Source: Flammula alnicola
Lineage: Eukaryota > Basidiomycota > Agaricomycetes > Agaricales > Strophariaceae
DNA length: 64,000 nucleotides
Assembly: GCA_015499995.1 (NCBI GenBank)
Contig: JADNRV010000117.1
Coordinates: forward strand, 1-64,000
Direction: 5' to 3'
Shown: in pieces, positions 3,011 through 63,700 of the stretch
Layout: the number at the start of each line of letters is the position of its first letter
Numbering within the stretch: position 1 is the first letter of the stretch
Made by a program: the position numbers and the translations under genes
Notes under the pieces: generated by a model
Told to the model about the DNA's origin: nothing
Databases searched by the model: none
Seen by the model: only the letters and a program-made list of their open reading frames with translations

Positions 3011-5879
3011 TTCTTCCATGGATAAACAATTGCACACTAAGTGGCCTGCGGAGAGCACATGGTCTCCTGCTTAAGTTGAGTGTTTATATAGAGTTGGGAG
3101 GACCTGTATGGATGTTGGTGCGACCGATTATACCCCAGACTTGTGTGTATTACCGTAAAATAATTGACATAATTGGCAAGAAATTTTAACGAGGGATATC
3201 CTTGCGGAGCCTGCCCTAAACCAGTTCGGCAACCTATATAGCGTCTTTGGTTATCTCTGACACTCTCAGGCGAGTTTGTCTCTCCCCCAACTGAGCTGTG
3301 GATTTCATTGGTGAGATTTCTCCTCATTCTCCTCCGATTCTTGCTTCTAATCGGTATCAATGGTCTGCAGTGTTGCTGTCTGACAGACAAGCCATAGTGT
3401 CTTCGTCTGGTAAGTAGGCTTGGATATCTGAACCTGACGTCCTGATTGCTCACTCCTCTCAGGATGATGTAAATTTACTCTCCGTGATGTAGATTTACTC
3501 TCCAAGATGAAGAATTATCCCGTGCGCTGACACGCGCAACGGATAAGAGGTCTACCCTACTGAGCTAGTTGTCTATCTTCTATCAGGGAAGCCCTGGTAC
3601 GTGTGAATTTTATCGGAGTCCATGATCCATCCCACCAGAGAGTGTTACTCATGCTGCTTGTCTTTCAGGTAGAACAGAATGCTGGCCGCTTAGCCTCCAT
3701 TCACGTATAATCAATCCGATCATATTGAATTTGGAACTACAAAGGGAACATTGTAGAAGGTGTGCGCCTCGACCTGATTCAAGCAGCAATGTTTCCTTGA
3801 TTCTACGTTCAATATGATGGTGTTGATGTACTTTGGGAGTAATTCCAAAGTACTTTGCAAATCAAATACCCCAGGACATTCCTTCCAATGACGAAGCCGT
3901 TAAATACTCGGTCTATTTTATGTCGTAGAATAGACGGAGAGCTTGTTGTTGACTACTCCCAGCTAATGTCAATGAAGTTGGTTGTAGAGACATAATACTA
4001 GTTTGTAAGGCCCTTGAAGTGATTTCGAAACAACATCGATCAGCGCCACTTAGGCAACACTGATAACTACTCCTACTACTGAGTTGCGAATCCGGAAGGA
4101 CACACGTCAACGTACTGAAGCTGCTGCGCCTTGTGACTTGCACACATTCGGCTGCGCACGCCCCAAACTCTCGCCCTTCTCCCCGGGACACGATTCGGCG
4201 GGTGATCGTCGTGTCAAGTATCCAACGAGCCACACCCAAGGCGCCGATGGGTAACCTTGCCCTGCGGTATTACTTGCTTTCTTCTTGTTCGTCCTGTTTA
4301 GACTGCAGCGTCTGACCACCGGTGTCTCTCCACGGAGGCAGTGCCTTGTGGCCCTTGTCACTCCCTTTCTTCATCGATGGCATAGGTGCCGGCCTACGGA
4401 CTGGGGTGCGCGGCAGTGGTTATACCGACACAGTAAGGGGCTGGAGGTTGGGAACCGCCCAGAATGAGCTCGAACGTCGTCGTAGCCACCACGACGATAT
4501 TGACATTCGAGGTTGAAGAGGACACGGCAGAACGACATCGTCTCCTCATATCCTGTGGATAGAAGGGTAAGTGCGAGGGGTGTGGGTGAAGAGAGCAGAA
4601 TGCGAAACGAATCGTATGATCTATGCATGACTCAAGGCAAACTCAAGGCTTCAAGAACCCAGACTTACTGGATGTATACGATGTGTACGCCGCTACTTTC
4701 TCGAGGGCGATGATTAACGCGGGAAGGAAAGTAGACGTCCGATGGACGTGAATGAGCCTGAAGAAAGGGCTCGACGGAATCTCGGAGGGTCTTGGACTCG
4801 GAGGACGTATAATTCTTTATGAAGAGTTGGAGGAGACATCTATTGACGCGAGACGTTGACGCGAGACGGAGCGGAGGCTCATACTGGTAAAAATACCCGA
4901 TTGTTAGGTTGGTCTTGCTTTTTGCTTGCTTTGCTTTTCTCGTGCATTATTTCATCTTGCCTCTCTTTTTTTGCATGTAGGTTTGAGCTGGTATACTTTG
5001 GGCTTTGCAAACCAAACCGCATCTTAGATTGCCCGTATGAGCACTTGCCAGATAACACCAGGATTCTATGTCCTACTCATCTACGTACATCTGTATCCTA
5101 CCATCATCAAAAACAGGCCATTCAACCCAAACACCTCCGGCTCCTCCTCCTAGTACCCCGTCGATGTCGACTTTCACCACTCCTCTCATCGGACCATCGC
5201 TACTTGCTTTCACGGACGTCGGCGTTATGACCAAACGATCAAACTAGTTCCCCTTGGCCTGCCCCTGTCTAATCTCTCCATCGCAAATGAGCACTTCAAA
5301 ATACTCGAGCCATTTGTTGCCGAACACCCTGTCAACACCCGCATCGAAAGCAACCCTTATTAGTAGCGCGAGGTTCATACCAACCACACGTACACCCACA
5401 GCACCCAGTATGATGAGAAGTTTGAGAAGTGGCGTCGGCGTCGTGAGGACGGCTATGTACAAGCCGACAAGTGCAACAGTCTTTGATTGTGTCTTCTGAA
5501 CGGCATCCTTGTCGAGATTTATTTTAAACTTCTCATGTTGAGAGGATTTGGGTGTTTGCAAGGGGTATGTAGCGTACACAAGGTTGACTGTATTGTGACT
5601 AGGAAGTGTGCAACAAGGTGTTGATACTTCATATTGATCCTGCAATATGATACAAAAGTATTTAAATAGAATTTGTGGGGTTGGATAAAAGATACAATTC
5701 ATGCAAAGATATTTAATGCTTTCCAAAAAAATTCTACTGTCTACCAGACAAATTTGCTGAAATAAAACCCAAATAAAACCTCAGTTCACACCAGTATCAT
5801 GCTTTCCAAGTCTTCCTTGGTTGGCCCTATCAAAGTTAATATCAATCTGTAACAGAGCCAGGTGGGCAGAATTCTGAAT
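3011..5879. other. Gene-poor stretch, no confident gene
   Basis: Nearly 2.9 kb with only short open frames. A roughly 20-bp tandem duplication (GATGTARATTTACTCTCC) lies at about 3464-3505. A minus-strand frame at 5244-5726 (160 codons) contains a hydrophobic segment (LLKLLIILGAVGVRVVGM) but has no recognised domain and may be unrelated or decayed. Its position just downstream of the stop at 5880 means it could overlap the 3' UTR of the next gene. Nothing else is supported. Confidence 0.4.
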
Positions 5880-8800
5880 CTATGGATCTACATCCATTAC
5901 ATCTTCTATCAAAAAGCCTCTGCCAATGTCTAATGAATTACCAGTAATCACAGTATCAAAGGAAGAATCTACATCCATCATGTCTTGATGGCCAGACCAC
6001 ATTCATTTAAGGAAAAAAAGGATAAATGGAGGACAGACTCACCTTGACCAATTTCTTCTATTCCAGAGGTTGAAGGAGTGGAATGAATAGGTGCTTTGCA
6101 GACAGAAAGAAAATGAAGTTAAATAATATATGGTGTTACATGACATACAGTTGTTCTGAGGCTTAAGAGTAGCATTCAGCAAGAAAATACAGCATGGCAA
6201 GAGGAAAAAGCACTCACATACTGCAATGCAGAGAGAGATTGCCACTGTCAGCAAGGAAAGACGGCAAGGAGAGAGAGCACTCACATCCTGCAATGCAGAG
6301 AGAGATCGCCACTGTCAGCGAGGGAAGACGGCAAGGAGAGAGCACTCACAAGCTGCAATGCAGAGAGAGATCGCCGCTGTCAGCAAGGAAAGATGGCAAG
6401 GAGAGAGAGCACTCACGTGCTGCAATGCAGAGAGAGATCACCAGTGTCAGTGAGGGAAGAGGGCAAAAAGAGAGAGCACTCACAAACTGCAATGCAGAGA
6501 TCGCCACTGTCAGCGAGGGAAGATGGCAAGGAGAGAGAGCACTCACAAACTGCAATGCAGAGAGAGGTCGCCACTGTCAGCAAGGGAAGATGGCAAGGAG
6601 AGAGAGCACTCACGTGCTGCAATGCAGAGAGAGGTCGCCACTGTCAGCAAGGGAAGACGGCTAGGAGAGAGAGCACTCACGTGCTGAAATGCAGAGAGAG
6701 ATCGCCATTGTCAGCGAGGGAAGACGGCTAGGAGAGAGAGCACTCACGCGCTGCAATGCAGAGAGAGATCGCCACTGTCAGCGAGGGAAGACGGCGAGGA
6801 GAGAGAGCACTCACGCGCTGCAATGCAGAGAGAGATCGCCACTGTCAGCGAGGGAAGATGGCAAAGAGAGAGCACTCACGCGCTGCAATGCAGAGAGGGA
6901 TCGCCACTGTCAGCGAGGAAAGAGGGCGATACGAGAGAGCACTCACATCCTGCAATGCAGAGAGAGATCACCACTGTCAGCGAGGAAAGATGGCGAGGAG
7001 AGAGAGCACTTACAAACTGCAATGCAGAGAGAGATTGGCGAGGAGAGAGAGCACTCACAAACTGCAATGCAGAGAGAGATCGCCACTGTCAGTAAGGGAA
7101 GACAGCGAGGAGAGAGAGCACTCACAAACTGCAATGCAGAGAGAGATCGACACTGTCAGCGAGGGAAGATGGCGAGGAGAGAGAGCACTCACAAACTGCA
7201 ATGCAGAGAGAGATCGACACTGTCAGCGAGGGAAGACGGCAAGGAGAGAGCACTCACAAGCTGCAATGCAGAGAGAGATCACCACTGTCAGCGAGGAAAG
7301 AGAGCGATACGAGAGAGCACTCACGCGCTGCAATGCAGAGAGAGATCGCCATTGTCAGCGAGGGAAGACGGCAAGGAGAGAGCACTCACGTCCTGCAATG
7401 CAGAGAGAGATCGACACTGTCAGCGAGGGAAGATGGCGAGGAGAGAGAGCACTCACATACTGCAATGCAGAGAGAGGTCACCACTGTCAGCAAGGGAAGA
7501 TGGCGAGGAGAGAGAGCACTCACAAACTGCAATGCAGAGAGAGATCGCCACTGTCAGCGAGGGAAGACGGCAAGGAGAGAGCACTCACATCCTGCAATGC
7601 AGAGAGATATCGCCACTGTCAGCGAGGGAAGATGGCGAGGAGAGAGAGCACTCACGTCCTGCAATGCAGAGAGAGATCGACACTGTCAGCGAGGGAAGAT
7701 GGCGAGGAGAGAGAGCACTTACCAACTATACTCCAGTAATATGATTGTTGGGGAAATATCAGATCGTGTGCTTGCTTGATTTTTAGTGACTGACCACTCT
7801 GCTCGAAGCCATGTCAGCCCTTGCAACGGCGTCCTTAACTTTGGCTGGGTCTTGATTGTGGTGCAAAATACACTCCATATCACCAGGAGCTATATCATTG
7901 TCAGTAGTTCTCCCCTCATTTCGTCAAGGACACATAGCTCACATATCAGACGTTGTAACTGCTCTCGATAACGTACAATACTGGATCGCTTGAAAGCCTA
8001 TGACAAAAGATTTAGCAAATTTCATCGTTTCATGTACCTGTCATTTACCATTTTTCTGTCCCTTTTTGAACTCGCTATCAAGCCGCTACATTCAAGAAGA
8101 ATCAAGTCCACAAGAAGTCGACGGTCTAGAGTAAATATCGGTAGGTGCCAAAATTTCGACCAGCTCCAGTCTAACGGACTGAATGATCCTGTGCTGAATA
8201 TGTCCTACGATTTCTCAGATTTTCCATTTATATATATTGATATCGAGATATACACTCACGATTATCTGAAAGTACTGAGCAATGGTCAGTTAGCATCATA
8301 AAACGACAGGAGCTCGATTAATCAGAACGTACATACTGCGTCGCTATCGTTGCTAGGTCTGGGGAACTTCCGGTGAAAACATCCATCAAGGACAAATTAC
8401 CTGCAAGAATTTAATGTCAGGAATAAGTCAATTTTTAGTATGTTCACGCTGCCTGATATCGTACCTCCAGTAAGGACAATGAATCGGTCACCATCGGCGT
8501 TGGCTACAGAAGTTCCGAGGAACTGTGATATATCTGGCCGACGAGCTAGTCTTTGTGCTATGTGTGAGTATCCAGGAAATGTTAAAGCAAAACAAGAAAA
8601 CATACGATGATTTGACGATTGCGAGATGATCATGGAAAATATCCTCTTTATCCCTGTACTCATGAATGCGATATGTTTTAACACGCGAAGTGCATGTCAT
8701 CGGCTCCATCTCCATGGTATAAACGCCTGGCTTAATGGAACTGTGATGGAGATATCGCAGTGTTTGCTGATCGAAGTCGGTCCATCGATAGGCATTCCAC

Positions 8801-9042
8801 TGAATTGCAGTCAGCGTTTGCGATGCGATTGACTGGATCTTACATACGAGAGATTGCTGCTCGGGAGAACGAACGATGACCATATCTCCCCGAACTTCAG
8901 TAAACGTGGATCCGTAGATGCTGACCCCATCCATGTCGCGAAGGAAGCCACCATTCGACGATGGCGTAGAGCCTTCAGGTAGAGATATTTGATTTGCGGA
9001 ACGACGGTTTATCCCATTTTCCCTAGCACGCGGGCGATACAT
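5880..9042 (-). CDS. Unknown protein with a codon-sized micro-exon/intron array
   Basis: Exons follow splice consensus on the minus strand: 9042-8848, 8799-8606, 8550-8465, 8400-8333, 8274-8260 (15 nt), 7997-7943, 7889-7795, then the array of 24 triplets (7725 to 6218), then 6093-6043 and 5983-5880 with TAG. Exon 1 contains GVSIYGSTFTEVRGDM, a motif I associate with N-termini of uncharacterised Agaricomycete multidomain proteins. The following exons (YRDKEDIFHDHLAIVKSS, ARRPDISQFLGTSV, DGDRFIVLTGG) suggest a degenerate kinase-like fold, which is an inference. Exons 1-7 join in frame without stops. The last exons (STPSTSGIEEIGQ, then DMMDVDSSFDTV) also read well, but they need a one-nucleotide phase shift relative to exon 7 plus whole triplets, so at least one junction is unresolved. 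The protein function is unknown. The alternative is that the whole array is one 1.6-kb intron. Confidence 0.6.
6211..7725 (-). repeat. Tandem array of ~67-bp intron-like units with variable triplets
   Basis: Twenty-three tandem units lie between 24 landmark triplets (periods 67, with several 65, one 63 and one 45). On the minus strand each unit begins GTGAGTGCTC, carries CTGAC about 25 nt before its end and finishes CTGCATTGCAG, so it is a minimal fungal intron of 60-64 nt. The next unit's GTGAGT follows after exactly 3 nt. Triplets (minus strand) are TTT x7, CGC x4, CAC x3, GAT x3, CTT x2, TAT x2, GAC x2 and TTG x1. Elsewhere in the unit only a few two-state, mostly transition-type, positions vary. 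Long open frames on the plus strand through here (up to 351 codons) arise from the stop-free repeat and are not considered genes. Confidence 0.95.
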
Positions 9043-9475
9043 TCTAAGAGGGCGTGTTATTGGCACTGAGGAAGGTTGAAATAGAGTGTAGACGGGTGTG
9101 GTACAGAGTTGGGGTGACTTAAAGTTAAATGTGAGCCACACGACTCACCCACACGTCTGACATGTGGGTTGAGCTAATTTATACCAGGAATAGACCTTGA
9201 CAGCATCTCATTCATTACGGTAGACGTTCTCATAATGCATAACGCTGGGAACAACCTGAATGCGTCTGGAGGTTGCAAGTGAATCTGATATCAGTATCTC
9301 TTTATCTGCGTAGGCGAAAAGGCGTACCTCTTCAGACCTCAGTCCTTGAATTTGGTGCATGATCACCTACGCAAACGACAGCTATTGTGGCGGACTTGAC
9401 AAGTTGGGTTTACCCGTTTAAGTCGGACGCCTGTGAAGATGAGTGTCCGCCATCAAAATTCTTTACATACTATTA
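9043..9475. other. Intergenic, upstream of the array gene
   Basis: No gene was recognised. It should hold the promoter of the minus-strand gene starting at 9042; no clear TATA box was identified. Confidence 0.4.
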
Positions 9476-11786: not shown

Positions 11787-13049
11787 TTACGCGGTGACGT
11801 GGCGACGCAGCGTGTAACGGATGAACTGCTCAATAGCAGGGGTATCCTGAAGGTACGGAGCAAGGATGCTCGCGTGCTTTCGCAGGTAAATGAGAAAGGC
11901 ATCGCTTGACCAGCGCCCATGAACTTTGACAGCTTCGAAAGGCATCCCTCGGAGCAAGTACTCGAGAACACTGCCAATGCGTATGCTGTGGCCTTGGACA
12001 GCCTCTCCGCCTGAGGCTTTTGCTGCAGTGGTTATCCGCCGTAGGAATATGTTTCTTGTGAGCGGGCGATAAGCGCCATTGGTGTGCTTATAGGCGAACA
12101 GGTGGCCAGCGGGCGGAGGCGTGTTGACACGGAAATGGTTCGCCAGTGCTGCAGTAGGATCCGTCACACCGGATTGAGGTGCCCAGTGTACGTCTTCACC
12201 TTTGTGCTTAGCGATCTTGGTCCAAGGGATGTGCAGTGTCGTTAGGGGGTTGCTGGACGGTCCCCCTTGTACATTGGAGATATTAGACGGCTTGATGTGT
12301 AGCGTTGGGTCGAAAGCATTAAGTGACTTGACAGTAAATTCTCCCAAGCGAGCACAAGCCCAGAATGCGGTTGTTAAGCAGGCGTAGACGGCGGCGTCCA
12401 GACCAGTGGACAGATCTAGATGTCCGTGGATAGCAACGATGTCTCGAAGAAGCAGAGGGGGTCGTTCTGGTCGCTTCGAAGCCTCCGGCGCCAATTTTGT
12501 TGCCGCCATTAGTGCAGTTTTTAAACGCACCTTGTCAGTCAGCCACGGCATGCCATGGACGGTGTGCCAGGCTTTTACGCCATGGACATAGACACTGACA
12601 GAATCTCCTGCAAATGAGGCCGCACAGCTCGCGACGAATTCTAAGATAAGAGCTTCGCTCGCGGGGCCGCGGAGATGATCGGGGACAGGTGGCGTTTTGC
12701 TGTCACAGAAGACATGAAATACGAGCAGACCCGTACCGTAGCCGCTCTTGGTGTCGTCTGACCAGGCGAGACTCAGGAGATCAAGCACACGCTCGGCGAT
12801 GTCAGGGGATGACAAAGCGTAACCTATGGGCGCGCTCGCAGGGTTGGGCGCTACGGGTAACCATAAGCGAATCCGATCTGTACAGAGGCAATGCGGGCGG
12901 TTGACGGCCACGGCAGGTACGAGGCCAGGTCTGTAGGGTTTCGGAAGGGCTCTTGGCTTGGGATTTTCGACCACGAGCGGTGCGTCAAAACGTTGGCGCG
13001 GCATAGTTTGATTGACCCCATTCAGGGCGTGTCGACCAGAGAGGTTCAT
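11787..13049 (-). CDS. Tyrosine recombinase of Ngaro element
   Basis: About 420 residues. The C-terminal half carries the tyrosine recombinase set: the first Arg in CARLGEFTV, the H-x-x-R in GHSIRIG, the HGRW block, and the nucleophile Tyr probably in DAFLIYLRKH. It would integrate the circular cDNA. The reading frame is open far upstream (to 15503, 1238 codons in all), but that extension merely overlaps the RT frame out of phase and has no domain sense. The start at 13049 (MNLSGRHALNG) is chosen because protein-like sequence begins there; an ATG at 13004 is the alternative. The gene overlaps the end of the RT frame (12985) by about 65 nt. The frame is intact. Confidence 0.85.
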   Translation of the reverse strand: MNLSGRHALNGVNQTMPRQRFDAPLVVENPKPRALPKPYRPGLVPAVAVNRPHCLCTDRIRLWLPVAPNPASAPIGYALSSPDIAERVLDLLSLAWSDDTKSGYGTGLLVFHVFCDSKTPPVPDHLRGPASEALILEFVASCAASFAGDSVSVYVHGVKAWHTVHGMPWLTDKVRLKTALMAATKLAPEASKRPERPPLLLRDIVAIHGHLDLSTGLDAAVYACLTTAFWACARLGEFTVKSLNAFDPTLHIKPSNISNVQGGPSSNPLTTLHIPWTKIAKHKGEDVHWAPQSGVTDPTAALANHFRVNTPPPAGHLFAYKHTNGAYRPLTRNIFLRRITTAAKASGGEAVQGHSIRIGSVLEYLLRGMPFEAVKVHGRWSSDAFLIYLRKHASILAPYLQDTPAIEQFIRYTLRRHVTA

Positions 13050-15450
13050 AGTCCGGGGCAGGTTTAGACGAAGTCCTGTGGCTTCGGGCATGGTGTGAGG
13101 AGCTGATAGGTCTTTCTCGCTGGACGCGGACCTCAGACGGTGTGAGAGGGTCGAGGGCGTCGACGAGGAAATCCCATGCGCGGCGTGGAATTGCGAGTTC
13201 GGGGAGGAGGAGGTTGACGTCGCCAAGGATTCCGCGAGAGGGCGCGTCAGCTGGATTGCACTTACTGGGTACGTATGCAGTGTGGATACAATCGACGGAT
13301 CCGAAGTCTTCAAGCTTGTCATGGACGCACTTGAAGACTTCGTTGATCTGTGCATTCCTGCTCCTGCCGTTCCACCACCCTTCGACCACACCCTTGTTGT
13401 CGCCATAGAGCCTAAGGTGCTGACCGGGTGGGTAAAGCCGCAAGACTGCATCGACGAGGAGCTCAAAGCCAATGGCTTCAGCCCACCCGATGTCTCGCGA
13501 GCCTCCGAGAGTTTTCCAACCAGGGAGGAGGCGCCAGGCACGCCAGCGCTTGCCAACGACGATGGCAATCCCAATCTCAGAGCTGGCGTCGGAATATGCG
13601 CCAATGTCGATGGAGTCGACCATGGTTGGGATGGGTCGGTGTACAACGTCTCTGCGGAGACGCTCATCCCACCAAGCAAGGTCTGGCCCAATGCTTTTGA
13701 CCGCATGACGTGGAACGTGAGGTGAGGTCGCATAGAGACCCAGCATAGACTCGAGACCCGTGAGGCGCGCACGGCCAGAAGGAATAACCAAGGTGGCGTG
13801 GAGAAGGCGGCCGTAGATCGACTGTATGTCGTTGAGAGAGTGGGTTTGGCGAGAACACCACTCAGAAATGCTCGTGAGATATTTTTCTCTCTTCGGAACT
13901 GGGAGAGCGACCGTGCGTGAGTCGAGATTCCACAGTAGCCCGATGTAGGTGACAGAAGGTGCAAAGGGAATGTCTTTTGATTTTTCCCATGGGATGCCGA
14001 GGTCCGTTGACAGCCTATCGATGTCAGAGAAGTTATAAGTATAGTTTTGGTCTTCTGCACCACGCGGACTGTCGCCAGAAAGGTCACGCAAGGGAAAAAC
14101 AAAGGTCTCAATAGCTTCGAAACCTGAACCATCAGGCGAGAAGCCATCACCGTACCATAAGCGTCCGCCCACGCGGTGGCTGCCTTGATGGTCCACGAGG
14201 CGTCGCCAGTTCTCGCGGAGACTGTTGTAGACTTTAAGATATTGAGACTGGATTCGGAAGAAAATATTGTCGTCAACCCAGTTGTGTAAAGGCCCGATCC
14301 CTCGAGCGCGAAAGAGGTCGGTGCCACTGTCACTAATGGAACCGTAAGTGCCTCCAGATGGGCAAGCGCCGAACGCGCAGCAAGTGTCCACGTAGAAGAT
14401 GTCATTCCCAACGTGAACGACCCCAGAGTTCCATTGGGAATGATGTAAAGGCACTGTCCGGTACGCTTCACGTACGTCCCGCACAGCCGCCTGGGATCCG
14501 GGAGGCAAGGTAGCAATAACAGCGCAGGTGATCTGAAAAGTCCCCCAAGTACACGGAAAGTTCGAAGCGTTGACGGCAGAATTGATGGAAGGGTTCTTAA
14601 AGTTTCCGGAAGTTGAGTGCGGAAAGGAGAAGTTTTGAATGATACGGTATCTGTCGACTTTGCCAGCTTTAGGAATGATGGAGAAAGGAGAAGTCTGGAA
14701 GGGGCCAATGAGGTCTTCCAGTTGTGTACGAGAGAACGGTCCGATGTAACGCTTTTTGTCGACCTCGGCAGCCACAATGGAGTCAAAATGGGAACGGAAT
14801 TCAGTGACGGAGGGGCGATTGGGAGGAATCTGTGTAGCCAAGATTTTAGGGAAGTCAACGCGAAACCCATAGCGTAAACCAGTGACGACGCCAGAGTACT
14901 TGTCAAGGATGTGCGCGTCTGATAGCGCATCCCGCCAAGCGCGCCATATGTATGGCGTGGTTGGCTCAAGCTTTCTCTGTCCGAGGACACGAGCTGGCTC
15001 CATGGGTGGAAGCGTTGCAGCCCGAGCATCTGTGGCGTTCGTCGTGGCGAGTGGTCGAGCATCGGCCAATTTGCCAGTCGAGGCAAAATAGGGCACCAGA
15101 GGTACGTCCAATGATTTCTCCCTTGGAGTTGCGACAACAGAGGGTGTCTTGAGAGTTGTCCCAGATTCGCTTGGCTTGGCAATCGTTGAATCGGTGGCTG
15201 TGACGCCCGAGGCAGACGGCACAAGCTTTGGCGCCCGAGGAGCCTGTGCCGTGGAAAAAATCCTGACACGGGGCGCAGGGGAAGCCGAGTGACGGCGTTT
15301 CGCAGGAGGCGAGGGTGAACGCCTACGGGGTCTCGGCAACCTTTCACGTTCAGGTGCACGCAAACGCTTGCCCGAGTCAGCTTGGCGGTTCTGGAAAGAC
15401 CCAAGCCACGCAGAGCACGTACATCGACCGCAGCCGGTAGACAGTAGCAA
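12985..15450 (-). CDS. Reverse transcriptase-RNase H of Ngaro element
   Basis: An 821-codon uninterrupted frame. The N-terminal ~150 residues are basic and low-complexity. The RT palm follows: RYRIIQNFSFP, AAVRDVREAYRTVPLHH (first catalytic Asp), and HNWVDDN as the variant of the YxDD box. RNase H is C-terminal, with acidic residues in GAYSDAS, GWAEAIGFE, YGDNKG and NPADAPSRG. These features are shared by DIRS-order RTs. No retroviral-type integrase or protease is present, as expected, because the YR downstream performs integration. The ATG at 15450 opens the frame, but the true start may be internal or depend on ORF1 readthrough. Confidence 0.88.
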   Translation of the reverse strand: MLLSTGCGRCTCSAWLGSFQNRQADSGKRLRAPERERLPRPRRRSPSPPAKRRHSASPAPRVRIFSTAQAPRAPKLVPSASGVTATDSTIAKPSESGTTLKTPSVVATPREKSLDVPLVPYFASTGKLADARPLATTNATDARAATLPPMEPARVLGQRKLEPTTPYIWRAWRDALSDAHILDKYSGVVTGLRYGFRVDFPKILATQIPPNRPSVTEFRSHFDSIVAAEVDKKRYIGPFSRTQLEDLIGPFQTSPFSIIPKAGKVDRYRIIQNFSFPHSTSGNFKNPSINSAVNASNFPCTWGTFQITCAVIATLPPGSQAAVRDVREAYRTVPLHHSQWNSGVVHVGNDIFYVDTCCAFGACPSGGTYGSISDSGTDLFRARGIGPLHNWVDDNIFFRIQSQYLKVYNSLRENWRRLVDHQGSHRVGGRLWYGDGFSPDGSGFEAIETFVFPLRDLSGDSPRGAEDQNYTYNFSDIDRLSTDLGIPWEKSKDIPFAPSVTYIGLLWNLDSRTVALPVPKREKYLTSISEWCSRQTHSLNDIQSIYGRLLHATLVIPSGRARLTGLESMLGLYATSPHVPRHAVKSIGPDLAWWDERLRRDVVHRPIPTMVDSIDIGAYSDASSEIGIAIVVGKRWRAWRLLPGWKTLGGSRDIGWAEAIGFELLVDAVLRLYPPGQHLRLYGDNKGVVEGWWNGRSRNAQINEVFKCVHDKLEDFGSVDCIHTAYVPSKCNPADAPSRGILGDVNLLLPELAIPRRAWDFLVDALDPLTPSEVRVQRERPISSSHHARSHRTSSKPAPDYEPLWSTRPEWGQSNYAAPTF

Positions 15451-15590
15451 ACATCGACCGCAGCCGGTAACGTGTCATCGACATGCGGAGACGCAGCCGG
15501 CAAAATTCATGACATCGACATGCAGAAATGCAGCCGGCAACAAGTCATCGACATGCGTCGGATACGCAGTGGCCGGCATTAACAAAGAGC
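15430..15590. repeat. Short degenerate tandem repeat (CATCGACATGC...GCAGCCGG)
   Basis: Four to five imperfect copies of a ~32-bp phrase combining CATCGACATGC or CATCGACC with GCAGCCGG lie between ORF1 and the RT frame. A poly-G run (about 14 G) follows at ~15645-15660. They could act as a leader or slippage region, but no function is demonstrable. Confidence 0.6.
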
Positions 15591-47063: not shown

Positions 47064-50000
47064 CTACTCGCGTCTGCTCAGTGCTTGTAGTTGCACAAAC
47101 TCGTAGTAATCGCCTCGTTGCGCCAGTAATTGGTCGTGCGTGCCGGACTCACTGACACGTCCGTCCTTGATGAAGTAGCTGTGTAACAGGACATTGCATG
47201 TCAGTAAACATGTTGGAGAGGGGCCCTAGCAACCAGTGCCAAAGAAAAAAACATGACGTACATTCGGTCGGCATTCTGGATGGTTGACAACCGATGCGCA
47301 ATAGCGATCGTTGTCCTGCCTTTCGCCGCTTGGTCAAGAGCAGCTTGCACAACCTTTTCGGAATTCGAATCCAATGCAGACGTCGCCTGAATAGGAGAGC
47401 CGTTATGAGTTAGTAGATCTTTTCTAAATATGTCGCCTTCAGATTACGTACCTCGTCTAGCAGCAGAACCTTAGGGTTCCGCAGCAAAGCACGCGCAATG
47501 GCAATACGTTCTGACAAGAACCATCACAATCAGACAGACCATCGATGCAAATGACAAGCTGCAACTCACGTTTTTGTCCACCAGACATTTGCGAACCCTT
47601 GCCACCGACGTCAGTGTCGAAGCCCCTGCAGAAAAAAAGGTTTAGAATCAATACAGTTCATGAAACAGCCAACGACATACTGAGGCAATTCCTGGATAAA
47701 GTCGAGAATGTTTGCATTTCGGCAAGCATCTTCAATCTCCTCTTGCGTGACCTCGGATTCCGGTTTGATCGCGCCCAACAAAATATTGAATCGTACAGTG
47801 CCAGCGTAAAGGGTTGGTTCCTGAGACACTAACGCCAGATGTTTGCGGTATTCCTGGATATTAAGATCGGTGATACGTTCGCCGTCAAGCTGGAAAGAGG
47901 GAAGACATTGAGTTTCCGCACTGCAGTACACGGTGATATGAGTCACATACGTATATTTCTCCATGAAGGGGATCATAGAACCGTTCGATCAATTGAATGC
48001 TGGCGGAAAAGTGGTGGTCAGAGTCTGGCACCGCAACGACGGATATATGATACTCACGCTGTACTCTTGCCCGACCCACTGGCGCCAACCAAGGCGATGT
48101 ATGTTCCAGGCTCGACCTCCAGCGACAGGTCCCGCAACACACGAACACCAGGGCGAGTGGGATACCGGAAATGAATATTCTCGAAACGGATATGCCCCTG
48201 GACAGTCTTGTCGTCCACTACTTTACCCTCGGTTGATTCAGCGTCAATCTCCGGTCGGGAATCTAGCAATTTGATGATATCTGAGCCAGCACCCTTCGCT
48301 GACGAGATATCGGGCACGAAAGAGAACACGTTCCCAGCTTGGATGGCACCGAAAGTCGTGCTCTGAAAGCAATAAACATGAGGACATGAAATCGTATATA
48401 AGACTGAGAAATTTGCATACCATGAGACCGACGAAGAACTCGAAAGTGGTAGCCTCCTGCCGCGAGACAAGCGTGGCTCCGAACCAGAAAATGAGAGCGA
48501 TGACGAAGAAGACCATCGACTGCGAGAGCGCGTAAAGCATGTTGCTCGTGATAGCGGTCCTGTTCGACTTGCGGAGCGGCTCTTCCAAGCTCTCGCTGTA
48601 CAGTCTCAGGCAGTCGTCTTCCCTCGTGAGCGCAGCGACAGTGCGGATCGAACCAGCGGCTTCACAAGCCAATTGCGCCGAGTCTTCGTGGGCCTTCTTG
48701 TTGGCCTGATCCTTGAGCACGACGACGCGCTGGGAAAGCGAAAATCAGTGTATATAATGGGATATGCTAAAAGGTTGACTTACCAGACGAATGTAACCGG
48801 CGGAAACGAGAAGTGGGGTGCAAGCTTTGCGTCCATCAATACCAGTGGAGTAAAGAGGAAGAGATTGAATAATAACATACCAATACCAACGAGAGCTACT
48901 TTCCAGATGAAAATGAGACCGAGGATAGAACCAGAGACCAAGGTGGCTATGCTCTGAACGATAGCACCAAGGGTGATACCAGCAAGTCCATTAACTTTCT
49001 GAGGGTTATCGCTGAGGTCGGCAGTCAATGCTCCAGTCTGTACATGACAACAAACGTGAGCAACGCAGATCTCAGACGGATTTACAATTCCTTACGCTGT
49101 TTTCATCTTTATCGAAGAATTCGACTGTAAAAAAATAATAATTAGCATTTCGTTCGTGTGTGAAGTATAGATTCTTATATTAAACTTACTATCTTGTCTG
49201 AGGATAGCTTTGAAGCTCAGGGTACGCAACCGTGCAGTTAGCGAAGCGGCAGCCGAGGCAAACAAAAAGTTCTGGAAGCCGATAGACATGGTCGAAATGA
49301 TAGCGATGATGAACATCCTATGACCACAGTCATGAATGTCAAAGTTACAGTGCAGGGCCTGGAGAAGACATACCAAAGAGCATTTCGATCACCATCATGG
49401 CGACGTTGGGATGCTTCGAGCTGAGAGAAGCCATCGATACCCTTAGCGTAAACAACACCAAAGGCGGGATAAACCATTCCAGTCACTAAATGAAGTCGTC
49501 AGAAAACACTACTGAGTTAACGACGAAAAGAACACTCACTGCACGCAAAAATGGCGCCAAGGATGTAGTTCTTCCATTGGTCACGAATAAGGGGTGCCAT
49601 GCGCTTGAAGATGTAGGGCAAGCTGTAATCATCCTCCTCCTCGCGATGTCCTGATGCCTCAGCAGCCTTGCGCTTTTGTTCCAAGATCTCACTCGCAAGC
49701 GACTGGCTTGTGTTCTTGCGACCAAGAGGGATCTCTTCGCGGGCGGCTTTCTCCATATCCTCTTCCTCAGAAGCCTCGGATACACTTCCAGCATCGCCTT
49801 TTTTACCGTTGTCCTTTCCTTCACGCAGCTTCTGGGCTTGTACTAGTCGGGCGTAGGCGCCATCAGCCTGGAGGAGGTCGTTATGGCTTCCGAATTCAAC
49901 GACATGTCCTTCGCCCATGACATAGATCACATCAGCGTCCTTGATAGTCGAGAGACGATGGGCGATGGTAATAGTAGTACGGCCTAAGAATAGTTAGCGA

Positions 50001-52309
50001 CTCCGCTGGTACAATAGAATGAATGGATGTGAATTCACCGGCAGCAGCTTTATCCAATGCGTCTTGCACGATTCCTTCCGATTGCGTGTCTAAAGCACTG
50101 GTGGCCTCGTCTAAAAGCAAAATTCTCGGATCGGACACGATGGCACGCGCGATAGCCACACGCTGCTTCTGTCCACCCGACAGCAGGAAACCACGTTCGC
50201 CCACCATAGTGTCGTAGCCTAGAGGCAATTTCGTGATGAAACCGTCGGCGTTGGCTTTAATACAGGCCTCCTTGATCAACGCTTCCTTCTCTTCGTCTGA
50301 AGCGTGCTCATGTTTGGTACCAATAAGACCGTGAGCGACGTTTCCTCTGATCGTCGTCGCGAACAGAGTGGGCTCTTGAGAAACGAGACCAATCTGGGTG
50401 CGAAGCCATTTGAGGTTAAGATCTTTGAGGTTGTGACCGTCAAGTTTGACAATACCGGAGATAGGATCGTAGAATCGTTCGACGAGAGAAACGATTGTAG
50501 ACTTTCCAGAACCTGAAGCTCCGACCAATGCGGCGGTCTTGCCCGCACGGAAAGTGATGTTGAGTCCTTTGACCACTTGGACAGTGGGGCGAGAAGGATA
50601 GCTGAATTTGACATCTTCCAGAGTGATTTCACCCTCAACCTTGTCGAGCTTCAATCCTTCAGGATTAGCCGAGTCGATGTCGGGAACACGGTCGATTGTG
50701 TCGTAGAGCTTCGCGGCAGCACCACGACCGTGAGTAATTGCTAGTGAGGGGAATTAGTAAAACAAATCTCGGGCCATCTACTCTAAACGACTAACCTTGC
50801 ATTTCCGGGGCGAGAAGGGCGAGGGAAAATGAACCGATCAAAATTGCCAAGAAAACATTCACGACCTTGCCCGGAGTTGCTACAAAAGGATATGAACGTA
50901 ATGCGCTGGGATCTCATAAAGTCTGTAGAGCATGATATGCTTACCATGGCCTTGGTTGATTAGAGTGGTACCAAAGCTGAAAGCTGTTGACAGGTCGTGT
51001 GAGATTTCAAAGATCGGACGGGTTCACGAAGAAAATAAACACACCAAGTGCATATGCCGAGTAGATGACAAAGAAGAATACTGCCAAACCTCCGCCATGC
51101 CAGACGGCAGCCTTCATGTCGACTTTGAGGGATTGGTCGATGCGTTGGTTATAGAGTTTGCCCAAAATTTTTTGGGTTCCAAAGGCCTGAGCAGTGCGAA
51201 TGGTTGAAATGACCTCCTCTGCCAGACTTCCACCTTCGGCGGTGTGTTTGAGGGACATTCTGAATGCCGATCAGCATGATAACATCGGGGGGAGATACAG
51301 AAACTACGCACTGCATGTATGTTGAAATGAACTTGTTCATAACCCCACCAGTGATGGCGATACATGGGAGAATGGAGGACATTGCCAGCGCCAAGCGCCA
51401 AGAACGGCCATATGCGAGAGCGAAACCAGTGACAAAGGCACTTAAAAAGTTGACTACGAGGGCAACCTTTTCCGAAATTCCCTGCTGTACCAAATCTACA
51501 TGACGCCAAGATAAGCCATGAGAAAAATGTGGTTCACCAAAATTCGAACGTACGTGTGTCCGTTTGTATACGCGTTGCGACCTCTCCAGCGCCGACATTG
51601 TCGAAGAATGCAATATCCTGACGCAGAACGGCTTGAAGATATCGTTCTCGAATACGTTTCGCATTAACTTCACCAGTGTACACCCAAAGATACATGTACG
51701 TGTACGTGCAAACGAACATCCCGATACCTATCGAAAGGTTAACTTTAAAGAAACATTGATGGTTATGTAGAACACACCAATGCACACCAGATAGGTTGCA
51801 CTCTTGCTAGCCGAATGGCGGAAATCTGCCGCGGCTTGTGGAATTTCGCCTGACCTAGCTGGATTGGCAACGATCTGCGTGAAATTGACGAAGGCTTGTG
51901 TTAGGTTTCCAAAAAGTAGTGACATGAGAGGCTAATAGCAACAAAAGTAAGTGACTGTAAAATCCAAGAAGATCGTGAAGCCATACCTGGGCTGCTCCCG
52001 CTGCTGCTGCTGCTATCAGCCCAATAAAATCAAGGGAGAGTTCGAATCTTGTGGAGTAACTATTGGCACGGACATGGTAAGCAGGCCTTCGGCAACGATG
52101 GAATGGACTACTCACCGGAACAGCTCTGTAAAGGATATGGCGGGTATTTCCCGCTCAACGGGTGTTACCTCCGTCGAAACGTCTCCCTCCTCATTTTTCT
52201 CATCCTTGACATCTTGCGGGGCTTTCTTTCGGGAAAAGAAGCCCTTGGACTTGGGTTCAGCGACGACGGTGGCCTTCTCGTCTGTGCTGCTTGGCCTGGA
52301 GTCGACCAT
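47064..52309 (-). CDS. ABCB-type full ABC transporter (MDR-like), copy A
   Basis: A complete TMD-NBD-TMD-NBD transporter across many short exons. It starts [12 protein letters not shown] (ATG 52309). TMD1 includes [20 protein letters not shown] and [21 protein letters not shown]1 has Walker [10 protein letters not shown], signature LSGGQKQR, Walker [12 protein letters not shown] and the H-loop IAHRLST. TMD2 includes [18 protein letters not shown]2 has Walker [10 protein letters not shown], signature MSGGQKQR (split by an intron), Walker [13 protein letters not shown] and [12 protein letters not shown]. It ends [11 protein letters not shown] at TAG 47064-47066. Both catalytic sites look intact. 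Such proteins export hydrophobic compounds or lipopeptides (including a-factor-like peptides) from the plasma membrane; the substrate is not predictable here. A close paralogue lies inverted at 60754 onward. Confidence 0.9.
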
Positions 52310-60753: not shown

Positions 60754-63700
60754 ATGGTCGACTCGAGGCCAAGCAGCACGGACGAGAAAGCCACCGTCGT
60801 CGATGAACCCAAATCCAAGGGCTTCTTTTCCCGAAAGAAAGCCGCCGCTAAAGATGTCAAGGATGAGAACAATGAGGGGGACGTTTCGACGGAGGTCAAG
60901 CCCGTTGAGCGAGAAATACCCGCCATCTCCTTTACAGAGCTGTTTCGGTGAGTCGTCCTTTTTGTCGTCGCCCAACGCCTGCTTACCATTTCTGTCCCAA
61001 TAGTTACTCCACAAGATTCGAACTCTTTCTTGATTTCATTGGGCTGGTAGCAGCAGCAGCAGCGGGAGCAGCCCAGGTATGGACTGATGATTTTCTTTGA
61101 TTTTACAGTCGCTTACTTTTGTCGCTATTAGCCTCTCATGTCACTTCTTTTTGGAAACCTAACGCAAGACTTTGTCAATTTCACCCAGATTGTCCTCAAC
61201 CCGGCTAGGTCAGGTGAAATACCTGAAGCAGGGGCGAATTTCCGTCATTCCGCTGGCAAGAGTGCAACTTACCTGGTGTGCATTGGTACGTCCGACCACA
61301 TGGCCATCAATGTTTCTAAAGTTAACCTTCCGATAGGTATCGGAATGTTCGTTTGCACGTACACGTATATGTATATTTGGGTGTACACCGGTGAAGTTAA
61401 TGCGAAACGCATTCGAGAACGTTATCTCCAAGCCGTTCTGCGTCAGGATATTGCATTCTTCGACAATGTCGGCGCCGGAGAGGTCGCAACGCGTATACAA
61501 ACAGATACACGTGCGTCCGAATTCTAGTGACCCAATTGTTTACGATGGCTCATCTTGGCATCATGCAGATTTGGTGCAACAGGGAATTTCAGAAAAGGTT
61601 GCCCTTGCAGTCAGCTTTATTGGTGCTTTTGTCTGTGGTTTCGCTCTCGCTTACGCCCGTTCTTGGCGCTTGGCGCTTGCAATGTCCTCGATGCTCCCAG
61701 TTATGGCAATTGCTGGTGGGATTATGAACAAATTTATCTCAGCATATATGCAGTGCGTAGTTCTCCAGGGTTCTCAGCATTATCATGCTAATAGCATTCA
61801 GAATGTCTCTCAAACATATCGCCGAAGGTGGAAGTCTGGCAGAGGAGGTCATCTCAACCATTCGCACTGCTCAAGCCTTTGGAACCCAGACGATTTTGAG
61901 CAAGCTCTATAATCAAAGCATCGACAAATCCCAAGAAGTGGACATGAAGGCTGCCATCTGGCATGGCGGAGGTTTGGCAGTGTTCTTCTTTGTCATCTAC
62001 TCCGCATATGCACTTGGTATGTTTATCTTCTTCGTAACCCATCCGACCTTTGAAATCTCACACGACCTGTCAACAGCTTTCAGCTTTGGTACCACTCTCA
62101 TCAACCAAGGTCACGGTAAGCATATCACCCTTTCTAGACTTTACGAGGTCGCAGGGTTAATTGCGTTCGCCTCCTTTTGTATGTAGCAACTCCTGGTTCC
62201 GTTATAAACGTTTTCTTGGCAATTTTGATCGGTTCAATTTCCCTTGCCATGCTCGCTCCTGAAATGCAAGGTTAGTCGTTTTAATCGCCTTGAGATTTGT
62301 TTTGCTCACTTCACTGTCTAGCAATCACTCATGGTCGTGGTGCTGCCGCCAAGCTCTACGACACAATCGACCGTGTTCCAGACATCGACTCAGCTAATCC
62401 TGATGGATTGAAGCTCGACAAGGTTGAGGGTGAAATCACTCTGGAAGATGTCAAATTCAGCTATCCTTCTCGCCCCACTGTCCAAGTCGTCAAAGGACTC
62501 AACATCACTTTCCGTGCGGGCAAGACCGCCGCATTGGTCGGAGCTTCAGGTTCTGGAAAGTCTACAATCGTTTCTCTCGTTGAACGATTCTACGATCCTA
62601 TCTCCGGTATTGTCAAACTTGACGGTCACAACCTCAAAGATCTTAACCTCAAATGGCTTCGCACCCAAATTGGTCTCGTTTCTCAAGAGCCCACGCTGTT
62701 CGCGACGACGATCAGAGGAAACGTCGCTCACGGTCTTATTGGCACCAAACACGAGCACGCTTCAGAGGAGGAGAAGGAAGCGTTGATCAAGGAGGCCTGC
62801 ATTAAAGCCAACGCCGACGGTTTCATCACGAAATTGCCTCTAGGCTACGACACTATGGTGGGCGAACGTGGTTTCCTGCTGTCGGGTGGACAGAAGCAGC
62901 GTGTCGCTATCGCGCGTGCCATTGTCTCCGATCCGAGAATCTTGCTTTTGGATGAGGCCACAAGTGCGTTGGACACGCAATCGGAAGGAATCGTACAGGA
63001 TGCATTGGATAAAGCTGCTGCCGGTAAATCTATATGTTTTTATTTTATTTTGCCAGCGGAGTCCCTGACTGTTTTTAGGCCGCACCACTATCACGATCGC
63101 TCATCGTCTCTCGACCATCAAGGACGCTGATGTCATCTACGTCATGGGTGAAGGTCAGGTTCTCGAATATGGGAGTCATAACGACCTCCTCCAGCGTGAT
63201 GGCGCCTATGCCCGACTCGTCCATGCCCAGAAACTGCGTGAAGGCAAAGACAGCGCACACGGGGAAGGCGATGCCGGAAGTGTATCTGACTCGTCTGAGG
63301 AAGATATGGAGAAAGTTGTCCGCGAAGAAATTCCTCTCGGTCGCAGAAATACGGGCCAGTCGCTCGCGAGTGAGATCCTGGAACAAAAGCGAAAGGCTTC
63401 TGAAGCTGCAGGACGTCACAACACGGATGATGATTACAGCATGTTTTATCTCTTTCGCCGCATGGCACCTCTTATTCAAGACCAGTGGACGAACTACATC
63501 ATTGGTGCCATTTTTGCGTGCAGTAAGTGTTCTTTTCTTCGTCAAGTCCGTGACCTGGTTGCTGACGCGAGCCTTTAGTGACTGGAATGGTTTACCCCGC
63601 CTTAGGTGTCGTCTTTGCTAAAGGTATCGAAGGCTTCTCTCTGCTGGAAGCATCCGAACGTCGTCATACTGGTGATCGAAATGCTCTTTGGTACGTCGTC

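Follow-up and report, generated by a model that had tools for sequence, protein, structure and literature searches.

A tandem array of intron-like repeats in a Flammula alnicola gene, predicted to encode a run of single-codon exons, and its recurrence across the genome

A stretch of 64,000 nucleotides from contig C21 of Flammula alnicola, hereafter called the window, carries a predicted gene in which 24 three-base spacers alternate with 23 intron-like repeat units. We consider it probable (roughly 65%) that this array is a run of 24 one-codon exons. Splicing is predicted to join them in phase 0, yielding a variable stretch of at most 24 residues close to the C-terminus of the protein. This reading is preferred because it accounts jointly for the constant spacer length of three nucleotides, the reading phase, the distribution of variation over the codon positions and the recurrence of the layout. 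In the mechanism that we propose, the intron-like repeats would be removed singly or in groups with the frame always kept, and transcripts might contain the complete set of array codons or only part of it. The array would lengthen and shorten through unequal exchange or conversion, and the first two codon positions would be under diversifying selection.

The positions of the array and of the predicted exons surrounding it are compiled in Table 1. Read on the coding strand, the spacers form the series TTG GAC GAT TTT TAT GAC CGC CTT TTT TTT TTT TTT GAT CGC CGC CGC CAC CAC TTT TTT CAC CTT GAT TAT. Each repeat unit starts with GTGAGTG at its 5' end (GTAAGTG in two units) and terminates with CAG, and the motif CTGAC is present in 22 of the 23 units, being absent only from the 42-nt unit, which lost it. 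Steps from spacer to spacer measure 67 nt (16 cases), 65 nt (5), 63 nt (1) and 45 nt (1). When junctions were matched by motif and the spacer length was left free, 23/23 comprised exactly 3 nt, which bears out the preliminary description of intron-like units of ~67 bp followed by exactly three bases. The strand opposite the array (6144-7779, plus) contains long open frames of 163-359 aa, likely a side effect of the purine-rich repeat.

Table 1. Predicted features of the window gene in order of transcription; "both copies" refers to the window copy and the paralogue on contig C277.
Feature	Position	Strand	Basis
E1, predicted first coding exon (MYRPRARENG...EQQSL)	8848..9042	-	frame 0 alone open in both copies
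E2, predicted exon (WNAYRW...AIVKS)	8606..8799	-	frame 0 alone open in both copies; in phase with both E1 and E3
E3, predicted exon (LARRPDISQFLGTSVANADGDRFIVLTG)	8465..8550	-	frame 1 alone open in both copies; in phase with both E2 and E4
E4, predicted exon (NLSLMDVFTGSSPDLATIATQY)	8333..8400	-	frame 2 alone open in both copies
Gene middle part	7977..8204	-	frame 0 open across 8204-8049 in both copies
Predicted pre-array exon (PGDMECILHHNQDPAKVKDAVARADMASSRV), phase 0 at its end	7795..7889	-	frame 2 alone open in both copies
Predicted intron of 69 nt (GTCAGT...TATAG), preceding the first one-codon exon	7726..7794	-	sequence, by eye
Array of predicted one-codon exons (24; LDDFYDRLFFFFDRRRHHFFHLDY) alternating with tandem introns (23; 42-64 nt)	6218..7725	-	
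Predicted last intron GTGAGTGC...CTGCAAAG, 124 nt, after the array	6094..6217	-	sequence, by eye
Predicted terminal exon HLFIPLLQPLE, then stop; phase 0	6058..6093	-	stop kept in the paralogue (HLFIPLLQLLE, then stop)

The preliminary description had further proposed to look for other arrays of the pattern CAG-NNN-GTRAGT. Indeed, the layout recurs in the 74.4-Mb assembly, which we searched with patterns consisting of two units and a fixed spacer; such patterns cannot detect single dispersed copies, and all match counts are lower bounds. With a spacer of 3 nt, at least 64 matches were obtained for CAG/GTGAGT, at least 44 for CAG/GTACGT, at least 41 for TAG/GTGAGT and at least 15 for CAG/GTATGT, as compared to 0 in the reversed control of each. 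CAG/GTAAGT yielded at least 4 matches versus 2 in the reversed control, and for TAG/GTAAGT 0 matches were listed in the genome versus 6 in the reversed control. When the spacer in CAG/GTGAGT was set to 4 nt, at least 1 match was returned, which by eye was no repeat, and at 6 nt 0 matches were listed in the genome. A hand count from the pattern matches, in which alleles were counted too, gave at least 18 sites spread over 12 contigs: one each on C21, C183, C277, C859, C790, C490, C93, C479, C560 and C643, and four each on C53 and C157. This count leaves out three GTATGT-pattern matches at C568:136682-152309, where the unit sequence is different and which possibly represent a fifth repeat family.

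Thirteen of the 18 sites were read, C560, C643 and three of the C157 sites being known from pattern matches alone. They belong to four repeat families, between which the intron sequences differ: family 1 comprises the window gene (C21) and its three copies on C183, C277 and C859, family 2 is C790, family 3 consists of C490 and C93 (37 triplets parsed in the latter), and family 4 is formed by the C53, C157 and C479 group. The consensus units of all four families contain CTGAC as well as 5' and 3' splice sites, and units parsed as single introns measure 35-74 nt. Leaving the spacer length free in 12 arrays, we obtained 3 nt in 230/230 motif-matched junctions; as alleles are included, neither these junctions nor the spacer and intron counts given below are independent. 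In C790, the spacer comprised 3 nt in 19/26 junctions, while six of the others had 2 nt and one had 1 nt. These short spacers occur in a stretch with apparently collapsed doubled bases and were tentatively taken for assembly error. In the mid-array units of C790, at about 3900-4770, one base of a doubled pair is often missing, and this part looks like unpolished assembly. In C53c (C53:74000-77500), a family 4 array is split by an insertion of ~1.4 kb, and the remaining units keep the 3-nt layout. Arrays in which intron identity has fallen to about 75% still retain their splice motifs.

The series of one-codon exons requires that the flanking exons join the array in phase 0. In the window gene, E1 to E4 chain in frame and a single frame fits the pre-array exon. 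However, by eye no splice path was found that connects the gene middle (8204-8049) in phase with the pre-array exon, and downstream of the array two non-0 frames are also open across 6093-6043, and longer, so that phase 0 at the terminal exon is not forced. The proposal that good coding exons flank the array on both sides thus holds in part. When the window gene was compared to Pfam using an early exon model that was incorrect in part, no domain was detected, and a protein database search with its N-terminus found no homologue. For the other families the phase was assigned by eye: in family 2 (C790), ...FPHIW precedes the array and VSDIMSLSVIKQ follows it; in family 3, ...MMERVIIHM lies upstream and a terminal exon of 28 residues downstream, whose frame and stop are identical in C93; in family 4, ...VPVEK lies upstream, while W and then IEL... 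follow downstream, this downstream exon corresponding to the C-terminus of the Flammula database protein P0005. Hence, phase 0 fits on both sides of the predicted array in 4/4 families, with splice sites assigned by eye except upstream in family 1.

Host domains were assessed by Pfam on typed partial models with exons joined by eye. The family 4 host (C479) matched ULD_2 (E 5.6e-16) and, below cut-off, PigL_N; the family 3 host (C490) matched MMR_HSR1 (3.6e-6), and the family 2 host (C790) matched MMR_HSR1 below its cut-off (1.4e-3). ULD_2 proteins are annotated on three contigs with family 4 arrays. No NACHT or NB-ARC (NOD) domain and no ANK was detected in the partial host models. The annotated ULD_2 proteins bear on the idea that the arrays are relics in dead genes, in which the repeats would persist via homogenisation without being translated. 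The incomplete gene model of the window copy and the insertion splitting the C53c array speak in favor of this idea, but in the paralogue, which has 89% identity, the exon frames have stayed open, those three array contigs carry annotated ULD_2 proteins, and diverged arrays retain splice signals and 3-nt spacing. We therefore regard decay of the host genes as quite improbable and retain the reading as one-codon exons.

Diversity was tallied for introns of 58-75 nt, leaving out the last unit of each array as well as C859, C157d and C53c. Spacer position 1 was the most variable column in 6/6 unit groups when compared to 64-68 intron columns, position 2 ranked 1-5 and position 3 ranked 3-31 against the same columns (six groups, four families). 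The diversity of the spacer triplet exceeded that of every three-column intron window in 6/6 groups. Conversely, the 5' site, the CTGAC stretch and the 3' site were less diverse than the remaining intron in 6/6 groups, although for the 5' site of the C53a group this difference was minimal (0.091 vs 0.095). The spacers had initially been called hypervariable, which applies to positions 1 and 2 but not to position 3, which is mostly T or C. As in the hypervariable repeats of fungal NLRs, the excess variability of the spacers amounts to homogenised repeats with few hypervariable, putative codons. Stop codons were absent from all 269 spacers (0/269); this is weak evidence because position 3 is T in 204/269 (alleles included in both counts). 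One of the 269 (TAC in C53c) is a misparse, and the units parsed in C790 lie outside its collapsed middle. Retention without stop or frameshift would be possible for only 12/245 introns, a tally restricted to introns of 30-90 nt that excludes C53c and the last unit of each array.

The concentration of variation in the spacer also speaks against a role of the array as host of tandem intron-encoded small RNAs, for which similar tandem introns are known from the SNORD115/116 host gene, according to the available text of PMC11608373. Moreover, the part of the window that was scanned for small-RNA families (5200-9400) gave no Rfam match up to E=1. A function of this kind appears very improbable to us, and the spacers are better explained as predicted codons.

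Allelic and paralogous copies allowed us to follow the array over different times. From 20.7 kb to its end, C183 matches window 5.3-57 kb in order, with 94-97% identity in longer blocks, and C277 and C859 match each other as C21 and C183 do. A search with the upstream flank hit four places, i.e. itself, C183 (99%), C277 and C859 (89%). We read C21/C183 and C277/C859 as allele pairs of two paralogous loci. Window 10.1-16.9 kb has no counterpart in the allelic contig C183. By eye, two long overlapping frames of 829 and 1239 aa within this segment (11787-15506, minus strand) recall the proteins of DIRS-like retroelements, namely a reverse transcriptase/RNase H and a tyrosine recombinase; neither frame gave a Pfam match at E 1e-4. 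Elsewhere in the window, two very similar ABC transporter pieces (49932-50753, minus strand, and 62294-63130, plus strand; both ABC_tran E 1.4e-32) lie in opposite orientation about 11.5 kb apart, resembling an inverted duplication.

Between the alleles C21 and C183, 8/815 differences were counted in seven predicted exon segments upstream of the array and 1/51 downstream, whereas within the array 36/63 positions differed in paired spacers and 110/1125 in intron cores, the unit pairing being uncertain. Here and in the following pair comparisons, units with introns of 30-90 nt were kept. The best-matching units of C21 and C183 were often out of order, as expected from turnover of the array. Codon series are kept in other pairs: the paralogues C479 and C53b have the same codon at 16/20 positions, a synonymous one at 1 and a changed one at 3, and intron length changed in 8/20; the alleles C53d and C157d have 20/20 codons in common, with intron length changed in 8/20; C277 and C859 share 22/23 codons, with intron length changed in 1/23. 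In recent pairs, differences in spacers and introns amounted to 1/69 vs 26/1243 (p=1), 0/60 vs 40/1124 (p=0.26) and 7/60 vs 144/1167 (p=1). Since the spacer rate thus does not differ significantly from that of the introns, purifying selection on single codons is not supported. In more diverged pairs, spacers change faster than introns, e.g. 19/48 vs 89/902 in C490/C93, so that the predicted codons do change faster over longer times.

Next to these comparisons, database proteins provide information on how the arrays may be spliced. The codon series is absent from all five Flammula database proteins (P0001-P0005), of which P0001 reads into an array intron. The protein P0010 of a relative (289 aa, on a contig of 1486 nt) is unbroken through the positions of the Flammula introns and for this reason looks spliced. 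It reads ...FRNIRILLVER SLL W VELVELLALARRREKW CQAEAEEANRFVEIS, i.e. it crosses the array region in frame and its C-terminal end resembles the Flammula terminal exon. Alignment to fully included C479 codons is gap-free across the array, with 19 residues followed by W, but of 100,000 shuffles 5,298 (C479), 18,118 (C53b) and 6,334 (C53d) reached the match, which is therefore weak. In the combinations tried, full inclusion scored 59-70 and full skipping 59-67, while retention of three codons plus W, taking the highest-scoring selection of three, gave 76-85. In consequence, P0010 was rejected as support for full inclusion. It supports crossing of the putative array in phase 0 and is compatible with differing codon numbers. 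A search with the C-terminal part of P0010 returned P0010 itself as the only match.

P0008 from Galerina marginata back-reads as a 68-nt intron plus 3 nt plus the next GTACGTG, and the array layout is thus likely shared by this species. At the C-terminus of P0009, about ten residues, which by eye could represent ten micro-exons or one ordinary exon, are followed by an apparent retained intron of the array family. The C-terminus of P0013 from Gymnopilus junonius (..FLISRKLMYTNKLIEHWPPL) resembles read-through of a family 4 intron, possibly with a longer spacer. Altogether, the proteins of relatives appear to support the one-codon-exon reading only partly.

An alternative is that the entire array is a single intron of 1.6 kb spliced at its outer sites only, which would make it an ordinary minisatellite of intron origin. 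In its favor, the codon series is missing from the Flammula database proteins, and P0010 also permits a reading in which the array is largely or entirely skipped. However, removal of the array as one intron would explain neither the constant 3-nt spacing nor the phase, nor the codon-position pattern, nor the recurrence. Specifically, there would be no account of why 230/230 junctions outside C790 comprise 3 nt, why four repeat families share the same layout, why the spacer displays its codon-position pattern and excess variability, and why splice motifs are kept in arrays at about 75% intron identity. Removal as a single intron is therefore judged unlikely, and serial one-codon exons remain the preferred reading.

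How many of these predicted exons an individual mRNA contains is a separate matter. Compatible with the one-codon-exon reading, the codons might constitute a combinatorial pool from which each mRNA retains a random or regulated subset. The splice sites are near-identical in every unit, 3-nt exons make every skip frame-neutral, and the best fit of P0010 corresponds to about three codons plus W. In addition, the available text of the papers cited below reports that exons of this type are alternatively spliced in Tuber melanosporum, and together with P0010 these reports favor selection among codons. On the other hand, P0010 may stem from a species with short arrays, and codon order is kept between the paralogues C479 and C53b, which suggests that the ordered series matters and favors complete inclusion. 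A combinatorial use of the codons is thus conceivable, but we lean against it. Taken together, the preliminary notion of serial single-codon exons carried by a minisatellite that turns over is partly supported, through recurrence in four families, the fit to phase 0, the specificity for 3 nt and the variability of the codons.

Should transcripts confirm the one-codon exons, splicing would be the assembly step for a region that varies codon by codon. The intron would then serve as recombination substrate and the codon as the diversity, and the segment could be lengthened, shortened and reshuffled without damage to the frame. The presence of four repeat families in one genome suggests that the same trick evolved repeatedly. 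A more far-reaching possibility, which we advance as speculation and find rather doubtful, is a genome-wide codon-cassette system of the Agaricales, in which unrelated recognition-type genes would independently have acquired intron minisatellites that supply one hypervariable codon per repeat, with alleles rewritten by unequal exchange and exon skipping giving rise to up to 2^24 in-frame isoforms. Within our preferred reading, the weakest step is to regard the ULD_2 and GTPase-type hosts as recognition-type proteins. If the one-codon exons are confirmed, the array loci would make it possible to examine directly how serial 3-nt exons are defined by the spliceosome and whether fungi diversify recognition proteins in this manner outside NLRs.

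The preliminary description knew of no described gene with serial single-codon exons, which does not hold: NACHT-ANK (nank)/NLR genes of Tuber melanosporum reportedly contain tens of codon-sized (3-bp), alternatively spliced microexons, as stated in the available text of PMC3689799, PMC4986451 and PMC10197012, citing Iotti et al. 2012. This disagrees with a statement in the accessible part of PMC11121469 that functional microexons were previously undescribed in filamentous fungi. Judged from these citing descriptions, the Tuber genes resemble the Flammula arrays in having tens of 3-nt exons in series (24 spacers in the window gene, their exon status being predicted), and the exons are said to diversify a recognition protein through alternative splicing. 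They differ in that the Tuber hosts are NACHT-ANK NLRs of an ascomycete, whereas the Flammula hosts are ULD_2 and GTPase-type proteins of a basidiomycete, with no Pfam match in the window gene, in that the predicted codons turn over between Flammula alleles, and possibly also in that the Flammula introns form a minisatellite. Micro-exon genes of Schistosoma, according to the available text of PMC10526429, likewise possess serial short exons, mostly multiples of three as predicted in Flammula. However, these exons mostly comprise 15 bp as opposed to the predicted 3 nt, and are separated by introns of 100 to almost 5000 bp rather than by tandem repeats of 35-74 nt. The Schistosoma proteins carry signal peptides. 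The repeats of fungal NLRs (HNWD and others) are homogenised, with positive selection on few codons in each and polymorphic repeat number, as outlined in the accessible text of PMC4986451. There, the repeat itself is coding (WD, ANK or TPR), whereas in Flammula the homogenised part is intron-like and each repeat contributes one predicted codon.

Introners or introner-like elements and stwintrons, as far as described in the available sources, are also multiplying, sequence-similar fungal introns, but they are dispersed over genes or nested, in contrast to the head-to-tail arrays at one gene position in Flammula. In the literature searched, which mostly did not extend to subscription papers, no series of codon-sized exons was found for a basidiomycete, for non-NLR genes or in an intron minisatellite. 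As far as searched, the kind of arrangement is thus already known from Tuber, while its occurrence in a basidiomycete and in non-NLR hosts, the minisatellite form and the allelic turnover are new.
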